The translations under genes were made by a program, and so were the position numbers. A stretch of 64,000 nucleotides of DNA, taken from Pristionchus mayeri (lineage: Eukaryota; Nematoda; Chromadorea; Rhabditida; Neodiplogasteridae). The stretch spans positions 29,939,067-30,003,066 of the forward strand of contig BTRK01000002.1 of the NCBI GenBank assembly GCA_036245805.1, written 5' to 3'. The notes under the pieces are model-generated. The model ran no database searches, had not been told where the DNA came from, and was given only the letters and a program-made list of their open reading frames with translations. This document shows positions 29,201 through 34,185 of this stretch, piece by piece (the stretch's first letter is position 1; each line of letters starts with the position of its first letter).

Positions 29201-32200
29201 GAACGCATCGGTGGTAAATAGGAAGCTATAAAGCATGATCATTAAAAGTAGCGTTTAGGGTAAGGGGCTGCAAGTGTCAATAGATGGTCAATTCGACTGC
29301 CCCGGCTTCACCTCGACTAATAATAAGGACACCGTAATTGATTGTCATACGAAACTGACATTGGCAGGAGTTGCGATGCATAAGAATATGCCAGGGATAG
29401 GTATAAGGGATTGTGAATTCCGAAAAATAATACATATTCTAGATGGAATTTCTATTCGTATGGAGTCCGAGGGAGTAAAGAGAGCTCTGGTTGAGCTTAT
29501 CGATGCAGGGATAGAGATAACGTGAGCTATTGTTGTAACTAAGATGAAATAAGTTTTATGCTAAGCACGCGAGTTGGTGACCAAAATGCAATGGTTAATA
29601 AGAAACTGCGAGAGGAGCCCAAAACTGCACATATTGAAGTACTCAATGATTGGTGGCACGTCCAGCGACCAATAAGAAAAGAATGGCGGAAGGTTGGGAC
29701 GAGAGCATAGCTCGTAAAAGCCAATCCCGCACTCGCTCCAATTTATCAGAAGTTTTTCAACCATCTATATTGCGTCCATAATAAATACCCTCTATTGAAA
29801 GATCGAAAACGTGCACTAGAAGTAGTTAGGTCGTTCGTCATGCACATCCAGGGGAAGCATAAATGGAACAAGGTGAACAAATATTGCGATCGCAATGAAA
29901 CAATTCAATAATAGGGCGATGGCTTCGAACTTGTCACCAAGTGTGAGCATGGTAGACTAAAGAGGCTGAAGAAGGGCGAAAAGCGAGAGATACTGATGGT
30001 TAGTCAATATGCGAGACCATATTCGAAAATTATATCATGATTCGCAGGCAAATTCTGATGAGCTTGAGTTGATTCGCTCTCTGGTCTTTGCACCAAGGTT
30101 CGAAAAGGCATTTTTGAATGCGGCTTCATTGATCGATACATCGATCAATGAGTGCTACCACTCACTGAGCTTGATGTATGCCCCGAAGATGCTTGCATGG
30201 TTAGTAAAACAATGGACAACTAGATCAGCATTAGCGAATAATAAGTTCAGCTCGCCCCCATACTACAAGCTGAAAATGCGAGTATCGCTGCTCCATTACA
30301 ATGGCCTTATGCTCGATGACCTACTGGGGCAGAGAGCCGAAATAGGCAACACTGTTCTCAAGAGGAAGGGACGCTTGGTGGGAGCCATCAAAAGAAAGAG
30401 AGGAGCAGGCACCCATGTTTGGAGGGGCGAGGTGAATAATTTGCTTTCCCGAAATACAACTAAAATAAATTCAACATTTATTTATTTCCAGATATTGGCG
30501 GAAAGCTTGAAAGTACGGGAGGAGCTGAGCGAGGCAAGGGAAGTCGCGCGACTGGGTATCCCAGAGGACGATGTGTATGACGAGCTAGTGAACTGGTGGG
30601 ATATGAAGGAGAAGGCAAAGCGAGAGTCGGGCTACGACATGTATGAAGAAGAGCAATTGGACTTCGGGGATTCTAGCGAGGATGAAGAATTCGAGGTTTC
30701 GCAGCGCAGTGTGGAAATCTAGTTATTACTGTACCCGCAATATGTTATATTTGCCAGTAAATAAAAAGGAGCATGTTATTGCCAATGTATACTTTTCGAC
30801 CAACCTAGCTAATACTTTTTTTGTCTTCACAAAATCAAAACTAGCCAACCTATATGTCCTTGGCTAGACGTCCGAGCTTGGTCACGGGCGTCCACTCCTT
30901 GTCTACTTCCTTTCCTCCGCGTCCACCACTGCATAAAAAATATTTTTATGGCACGAGGGAGAACAATTCGACTTTTTGAAAATACTGGAAACGTATATTC
31001 CTTTTTTAACCCGCTCGAGGCACGCGTTATAAGGGTTTAAAAAGTATTCATTCGAGATAATATGAAATTTCTAGTGGCATTGGATGGTCTGGTACCTCGT
31101 GGTATGGTCGTGGTACTACGTGATGCATTCCTGGTACCTGCACTACTATGTGATACGGATCTGGTACCGAATTGCCGATTTTGTCCTACATGGTACCAGG
31201 AATGGTATGGTGCTGACGTGATAAAGAGTACCCACTCACCGAGATAATCAATCTTCAATAGAGACGAAGGCCTTGAAGCGGGTGCAGCACCCGGCTCTGG
31301 AATAACAAAAATGTCGCGCATATCGATAATGTTCGAAGTACACGAGTACATCAAACGTCCTTGAACACGCATTGCCAATTTTACGTTATATCGGACCAGG
31401 CGATACATCTTTTTCACCTATTCACAGTATTACAAACCTGGACTGCTTCTGGACGGGCACGATCTTGAGAACCTCCTCCTTCAGGTTGGAGCAGAGATAG
31501 TCGATGATCTCGAACTTCTGAAATTATATAGGCACTGATAATCCGCCTTTGAAAAATAATACATAAAATGGATCCGGCGGGGTGCCTAGGAAAAATGAAA
31601 AAAAAATCATGTGAAAATTATTCTTCAAATCAAGTCGCCGTCAAAACTTATCTCTAAATTGCTCGATTTTTCATATTATATTGCTCACAGCACCATTTTC
31701 GAACCACGAAAATAAGGGGAATATTTTAAAGCTGTCGAAATCCATAAGAACAACCAAGCAAAACATTTATGAAAAATCGATAATCGCTAAGCGCATTTCG
31801 AGCAGTAAGTATTTTTTAAACTAAATAATTTAATATTTATAAATCAATATAAATATTAATTGTATAGTAGAGTTAAATAGTAACCTATTAGTGAGCGATG
31901 AGCGTTGGTTTGAAAGGCTCAAAATGAAAACACAGGAAATTCGCGTTGCTAATAAGCAGTAGCGCGTGAAACAGTTATCCATGAACGATTTGTAACAAAG
32001 TATTCTCCTTTTTTCAGACCAAGAACAACATCAGGACATTTTATTTGATCGAAAAAGCGTACCTGTCTTGCACATGAAGGCCTTCTTTTCGGCCGTGGTC
32101 TGGAAACGTCCGTGGCTGACCTTGGAGGAAGTGTCGATCCACTTGAGGGTAAACTTCTCGCCAGTCGACCCCCTGAACGGAAGAAGATGAAGTACATAAC

Positions 32201-34185: not shown

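Follow-up and report, generated by a model that had tools for sequence, protein, structure and literature searches.

How did pieces of three ribosomal protein genes come to lie with a transposase gene inside an intron of a channel gene? This question is raised by the window analysed here, a stretch of 64,000 nt from contig BTRK01000002.1 of Pristionchus mayeri (GenBank assembly GCA_036245805.1), in which a first-pass annotation had described exon-like blocks of RPS18, RPL3 and RPS2 on one strand. All five blocks were found, and all are on the minus strand. They belong to an element inserted within a DEG/ENaC gene, in one of its introns; channel peptides from the exons on either side of the element, joined in one query, matched PF00858 (1.1e-14), which bears out the annotated location. 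The features of the locus are:

27455..32997, no strand: whole A-subfamily Kolobok-type element, 5543 bp including both TTAA, bounded by the points where copy-to-copy homology ends
27455..27473, plus: left end of the element, TTAA followed by AGGGACCTGGCACTC, common to F47 and F46
27755..27979, plus: transposase exon 1, THAP-like (Pfam THAP 15.0 bits, E 0.044, under the 23.9-bit cut-off)
28063..30722, plus: remaining transposase gene, several exons with approximate boundaries, from copy comparison and PF20700 with the exon peptides of copy A2
30857..30943, minus: rps-2 exon 2 (N-terminal) piece, outside the native order, 88.5% to host rps-2
31252..31542, minus: rps-2 piece of exon 3, intron 3 and exon 4, 72.5% to host rps-2 over 331 columns
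31602..31938, minus: non-coding stretch called 'mid', common to the families examined, p 0.21-0.22 to F47, F46 and F49
32067..32160, minus: rpl-3 last-exon piece, both ends within the host exon, 94% to host rpl-3
32416..32533, minus: rps-18 exon 1 piece, 88% to host rps-18
32979..32997, minus: right end of the element, TTAA followed by AGGGATTTGGCATTA in the minus-strand reading

When aligned to PDB sequences, the window peptides gave E-values of 2.7e-10 (RPS18/uS13), 8.2e-11 (RPL3/uL3), 6.5e-15 (RPS2/uS5) and 1.5e-07 (RPS2 N-terminus). The entry 9bh5, which we take to be the C. elegans ribosome, was the top match for three of the four cassette peptide queries, and its RPS18 stretch is that of C. 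elegans RPS18. The intact host genes were located at C4:29.04 Mb (rps-18), C1:21.37 Mb (rpl-3) and C4:28.63 Mb (rps-2), and alignment identified all three as the sources of the cassette (72.5-94% identity). Since the host genes are at other loci, a misreading of one intact ribosomal gene is ruled out. The 'mid' stretch matched none of the three host loci.

Intron 3 of rps-2 aligns to its host counterpart, with 100/128 identical aligned bases in the window copy, 118/142 in F47 and 125/147 in F46; therefore, the rps-2 piece came from genomic DNA, and a processed retrocopy with introns removed is ruled out. The genomic source claimed in the first-pass annotation thus holds for rps-2, but not as a general argument from GT/AG edges, which the blocks had been said to keep. 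The GT/AG edges of the rpl-3 piece are non-native, since both its start and its end fall in a single host exon. For the rps-18 block, the BLAST match to the host ends about 4 bases into intron 1. The permuted order that had been noted, with rps-2 exons 3-4 upstream of exon 2, was confirmed, as was the joining in phase of the two internal RPS2 blocks once spliced; rps-2 intron 3 has kept both of its native splice sites.

In the genome, the RPS18 query (from P. fissidentatus) gave 171 matches, RPL3 35 (7 in the host gene) and RPS2 46 (1 in the host gene). The controls RPS3A and RPB2 gave 4 matches at one locus and 13 matches at three loci, respectively. General capture of housekeeping genes is disfavoured by these controls; since both genes, from two control families in all, were without repeats, the capture concerns particular genes.

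Some other sequences related to the host genes were also observed. Two introns of host rps-2 (L043 1669-1796 and 1913-2040, minus strand) match the nematode H/ACA snoRNA ceN39 at 43.1 and 40.5 bits (gathering 35); among the matches listed, neither the window's element nor L047 had one to ceN39. A second copy of the rps-18 3' exon, 98% to residues 98-155, lies about 7.5 kb downstream of the gene at C4:29052811-29052984 (G000). PF00297 has 28 matches beyond host rpl-3, including a second group at C1:571703, C6:28121596 and other places. A long genomic rpl-3 piece of several exons, 83-93% to the host, is also found in a different repeat, about 2 kb in length; in the two copies of this repeat (L051 2198-4164 at C5:22.84 Mb and L052 1996-3808 at C5:2.01 Mb) there are no terminal inverted repeats or TTAA AGGG ends. 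The annotated 104-aa P. mayeri protein PMAYCL1PPCAC_14006 (P0022), from a contig of 46541087 bases, is an RPS2-like fragment with its exons in native order, and therefore does not correspond to this cassette.

At window position 32997, homology between copies ends at ...CCCTTTAA in 14 other copies with unrelated flanks, and at position 27455 it ends at TTAAAGGGACCTGGCACTC in 7 other copies. It is unbroken from the ribosomal blocks to the transposase. The first-pass annotation had proposed a THAP element beside the mosaic as its carrier; the carrier was rightly named, but the mosaic lies inside that same 5.5-kb element, in which the transposase (plus strand) and the ribosomal cassette (minus strand) are arranged tail to tail in the window copy. 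TTAA flanks both ends in 8 end-to-end elements with differing flanks, the ends having been located with a pattern that includes TTAA. After the TTAA, AG at either terminus constitutes a 5'-RR, and the inverted ends read TTAA/AGGGA. The search for terminal repeats suggested in the first-pass annotation led to inverted ends with TTAA at 27455 and 32997, TTAA being the putative target duplication; the search for a clean empty site yielded none, the joined flanks of copy A3 matching on one side only, to a repeat that itself ends at TTAA. The carrier is thus a TTAA element with terminal inverted repeats and its own transposase, and the Pack-type or Helitron assignment was not upheld. Helitrons lack terminal inverted repeats and have TC...CTRR ends; a Helitron is ruled out by the TTAA/AGGGA inverted ends.

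A stop at 28898-28900 disables the window copy, as does the absence at 29708 of about 30 bases present in other copies. The repeat to the left of copy A3, whose end coincides with the TTAA of that copy, occurs at L058 (C2:25316151-25316305) and in at least 38 further places, the best 40 of 1455 first-look candidates having been scored; it may be another TTAA-targeting element. To the left of the window's element, at 26661-26765, there is a MITE-like hairpin with two 46-nt arms, 80% complementary and 13 nt apart. Searches of the window with Rfam at gathering scores and for tRNAs found none; the sole Rfam match on the element, to the mir-8364 model, is at 31.9 bits (gathering 67) and lies between the rps-18 and rpl-3 pieces (32292-32351, plus strand).

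Transposase exon 1 shows 49% identity to the N-terminus of the P. pacificus protein P0003, and no THAP match was reported for the P. pacificus relatives P0006, P0008 and P0009. The transposase core corresponds to PF20700, named Mutator-like transposase in Pfam (2.3e-10 with the A2 exon peptides as query). Nineteen protein relatives were found, all 19 from Pristionchus; transposases with 56-65% identity are present in the proteomes of P. pacificus, P. entomophagus and P. fissidentatus. In 11 Pristionchus transposase proteins, D316, D339 and H342 (DWWH) are invariant and D246 is nearly so; these four residues, assigned by eye, are a candidate for the DDE, C/DxxH catalytic motif. According to the accessible parts of PMC6004289 and PMC9587614, Kolobok elements have a TTAA target site, 5'-RR termini and a DDE transposase with C/DxxH, and are reported in nematodes. 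As far as those parts describe them, the element of P. mayeri is alike in TTAA and 5'-RR (AG) termini. It differs in that THAP is weakly matched and the core is called Mutator-like by Pfam. Given the weakness of the THAP match and the failure to recover an empty site, we call the element Kolobok-type, short of a proven Kolobok. Between A2 and B17, the transposase differences at codon positions 1, 2 and 3 are 12, 4 and 41, and the transposase shows purifying selection; this reading relies on the pooled count of 365 codons and not on single exons, some of which are without third-position bias (3, 4 and 5 in 28694-29104; 3, 2 and 3 in 29711-29908).

A search with the whole mosaic, in which the best 40 of 166 candidates were scored so that copy counts are lower bounds, revealed at least 9 matches that are full-length and 94-100% identical, counting that of the window itself, together with partial ones. 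At least 27 more, which are 88-89% identical over the first 953 bases, make up a second subfamily (B). The other copies of the mosaic that the first-pass annotation had suggested looking for do therefore exist. In B17 and B25, of subfamily B, insertions of about 223 and 166 bp are found at window 31535-31591, and part of them resembles repeats downstream of host rps-18. The 150 RPS18 matches listed make up 120 loci, 2 of them host loci, and 96 of the 120 have a transposase match at most 6 kb away among the matches listed. Of the 116 transposase loci among 150 of 289 matches listed, RPS18 lies at most 6 kb away and tail to tail at 94, and in another arrangement at a further 3, copies of one family not being independent in these counts. 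The 22 loci not tail to tail include 9 from a group with 42-47% identity, and also L055, which has the cassette although it was missed by the RPS18 listing. L056 and L057 are distant relatives, 99% alike; a comparison of 8 kb of L056 with the host genes revealed nothing similar to rps-18 or rpl-3 and, for the rps-2 locus, a match of 22 nt (E 0.006).

The order rps-18, mid, rps-2 is also present, in the same orientation, at the inspected loci of F47, F46, F49/F50, F53, F54 and F55. Transposase exons lie within the A, B, A9 and F47 elements and adjoin the cassette in F49, F53, F54 and F55; in F46 most of the transposase is gone and the cassette is kept. The F47 element is 6681 bp long; its left terminus is that of the window's element, and its right terminus is a different one. 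Of the rps-2 part, F49, F50, F53, F54 and F55 retain exon 2 alone. The rpl-3 piece is present in the window copy, A2, B17 and A9, and absent from F47, F46, F49, F50, F53, F54 and F55.

The two halves of the element were compared between copies. At 4-fold sites the transposases differ by 64/93 (A2-F47), 28/134 (A2-B17) and 20/124 (A2-A9), and the non-coding parts of the cassette of the window copy differ by 22-29% from F47, 7-9% from B17 and 4-5% from A9. Along the element, close and distant stretches of A2, B17 and A9 form a patchwork. The first 2.4 kb or so of F53, comprising the right end and the cassette, is like F49 and F55, and the remainder is unlike them; F53 and F49 show 91% identity over about 2.5 kb. 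The distance between these two is 4.4% in the cassette and 30.1% in the transposase, and F47 and F49 show the opposite pattern (17.7% and 10.1%). The rps-2 exon 2 piece is doubled at the change-over in 3 of 3 copies of the F53 type. In trees of 8 elements, the cassette groups F53 with F49 (99/99) and rejects F53 with A (p-AU 1.3e-6), and in the transposase tree F53 joins A (100/100), a grouping of F53 and F49 being rejected (p-AU 4.9e-5), the clades for the AU tests having been chosen after the distances were known. On these comparisons F53, the clearest case of exchange between families, is a recombinant, with the cassette and right end of one lineage and the transposase of another.

Compared with the host, the exons of the cassette show differences at 17/250 (A2), 22/253 (F47) and 16/256 (F46) sites, and cassette intron 3 at 28/139, 25/147 and 22/147, respectively; the divergence of the exons from the host is thus a third to half that of the intron. 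Exons are also slower than non-exons in 4 of 8 pairs at p<0.05, all between families (p 2.4e-4 for A2-F47, 6e-6 for A2-F46, 6.2e-7 for F47-F46 and 0.011 for A2-F49), and in the other 4, which are close pairs, no such slow-down was seen (p 1 for A2-A9, 0.28 for A2-B17, 0.61 for F53-F55 and 0.23 for F49-F54). The pairs A2-F54, F47-F54 and F46-F54 were left out of this comparison, the alignments of F54 exon 3 and F53 intron 3 being spurious. The G+C content is 54% in cassette exons and 33% in non-exons. The slow decay of the exons may reflect conversion by host exons, uneven mutation or real constraint.

Could the cassette encode a chimeric protein? Joined at their AG/GT edges, the blocks of the window copy or A2 give one open frame of 109 residues, in which RPS18 and RPS2 are in their native frames, and the kept splice sites of rps-2 intron 3 would suit such a product; yet the RPL3 part is out of frame, differences are even over codon positions with no third-position bias, and the blocks carry indels between subfamilies, such as a 4-base gap in rps-2 exon 3 of B. 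A protein product is therefore not favoured, and no chimeric protein was found among 65 matches of the joined query; we consider such a protein extremely improbable. Independent capture of rps-18 and rps-2 by each family might explain why A2 and F47 exons share non-host bases at 2/248 sites. It is disfavoured, and appears very unlikely, as the permuted order and 'mid', itself without match in the three host loci, are common to the families, and as F53 and F49 are alike over the cassette with transposases 30% apart. The same few shared sites, with the exons star-like relative to the host, would fit gene conversion from host to element, which would refresh the exon parts and make them seem slow with function unnecessary. 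Intron 3 also shares few sites (3/138), yet it is further from the host, and we hold this explanation to be unlikely.

Selection might instead act on the cassette as RNA or as DNA: because it is nearly identical to ribosomal mRNAs that are essential and expressed in the germline, it would shield the element from small-RNA silencing or make silencing costly for the host. Such selection would agree with exons that decay slower than the intron without codon bias, with stretches identical to host genes that reach 42 nt in the window copy and 74 nt in F54 (the window's transposase half has none of at least 18 nt), and with a cassette present at most listed transposase loci and kept in F46 despite transposase loss; but the four close pairs show no exon slow-down and rps-2 exons 3-4 were lost in F49, F54 and F55, and we think it decidedly unlikely. 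There is likewise a slim chance that the cassette is a functional non-coding part of the clade, held near in sequence to essential host genes so that small-RNA surveillance would either tolerate the element or be unable to attack it without damage to rps-18, rps-2 or rpl-3, and that it also serves as a tract for inter-family recombination.

The mosaic probably makes up the cargo half of a Kolobok-like DNA transposon of the autonomous type, an old capture that is mostly neutral and non-coding and has been exchanged between families. An ancestor element would have captured pieces of rps-18 and rps-2 by template switching or gap repair. The rpl-3 piece would have been added later, in the A/B/A9 lineage of the window's element, F47 and F46 having rps-18 exons 2-3 there. 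The cassette would then have been amplified by transposition and spread by recombination between families, with its edge as the change-over point, and would ride as passenger DNA. Host pieces and transposase in one repeated element make this a transduplication by an autonomous-type DNA transposon of the Turmoil-1 kind. The 109-residue open frame in the window copy and A2, the lack of a clean empty site and a THAP match below the cut-off count against this explanation, as does the pattern of cassette exons closer to the host than the intron, which plain neutrality does not predict. If the slow exon decay comes from real constraint rather than from gene conversion or uneven mutation, the element would be a natural case of transposon camouflage by essential host-gene sequence, and a testable one, as P. 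pacificus of the same genus is a laboratory worm.

Host gene pieces in DNA transposons are best documented for plants, and the animal cases available for comparison are the Pack-TIRs and one nematode element, Turmoil-1. In the open-access literature (subscription papers were outside the scope), we found no report of Kolobok-type elements with ribosomal-protein pieces and no paper combining Pristionchus mayeri, genome and transposable element. The main text of PMC9297572, which deals with repeats of P. pacificus, does not contain the word 'ribosomal', nor that of PMC8277862 the word 'Kolobok'. Captured ribosomal genes, present here, are absent from the Kolobok descriptions in the accessible parts of PMC6004289 and PMC9587614.

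Animal Pack-TIRs, as the available portion of PMC8277862 describes them, hold host gene pieces between terminal inverted repeats, with template switching proposed as their origin, and plant Pack-TYPE elements are described as non-autonomous in that of PMC8903248. Here too host gene pieces lie between terminal inverted repeats; in contrast to Pack-TYPE elements, the transposase rides with the cassette in most families examined, F46 being without most of it. The closest precedent is Turmoil-1 of C. elegans, which the accessible account (PMC2572040) presents as a Harbinger-superfamily transposon of about 5 kb with a transposase and pieces of two host genes, one of them two exons with their intron; the pieces are in 760-bp terminal repeats, and there are one complete copy and eight fragments. 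Going by that account, both are nematode DNA transposons with their own transposase and with host gene pieces that include exon-intron-exon, whereas the present element is Kolobok-like, with an internal cassette, many copies, several families and inter-family exchange. In P. mayeri the host pieces are a standing part of several Kolobok-like families with a transposase, present in many copies and moved between families by recombination.
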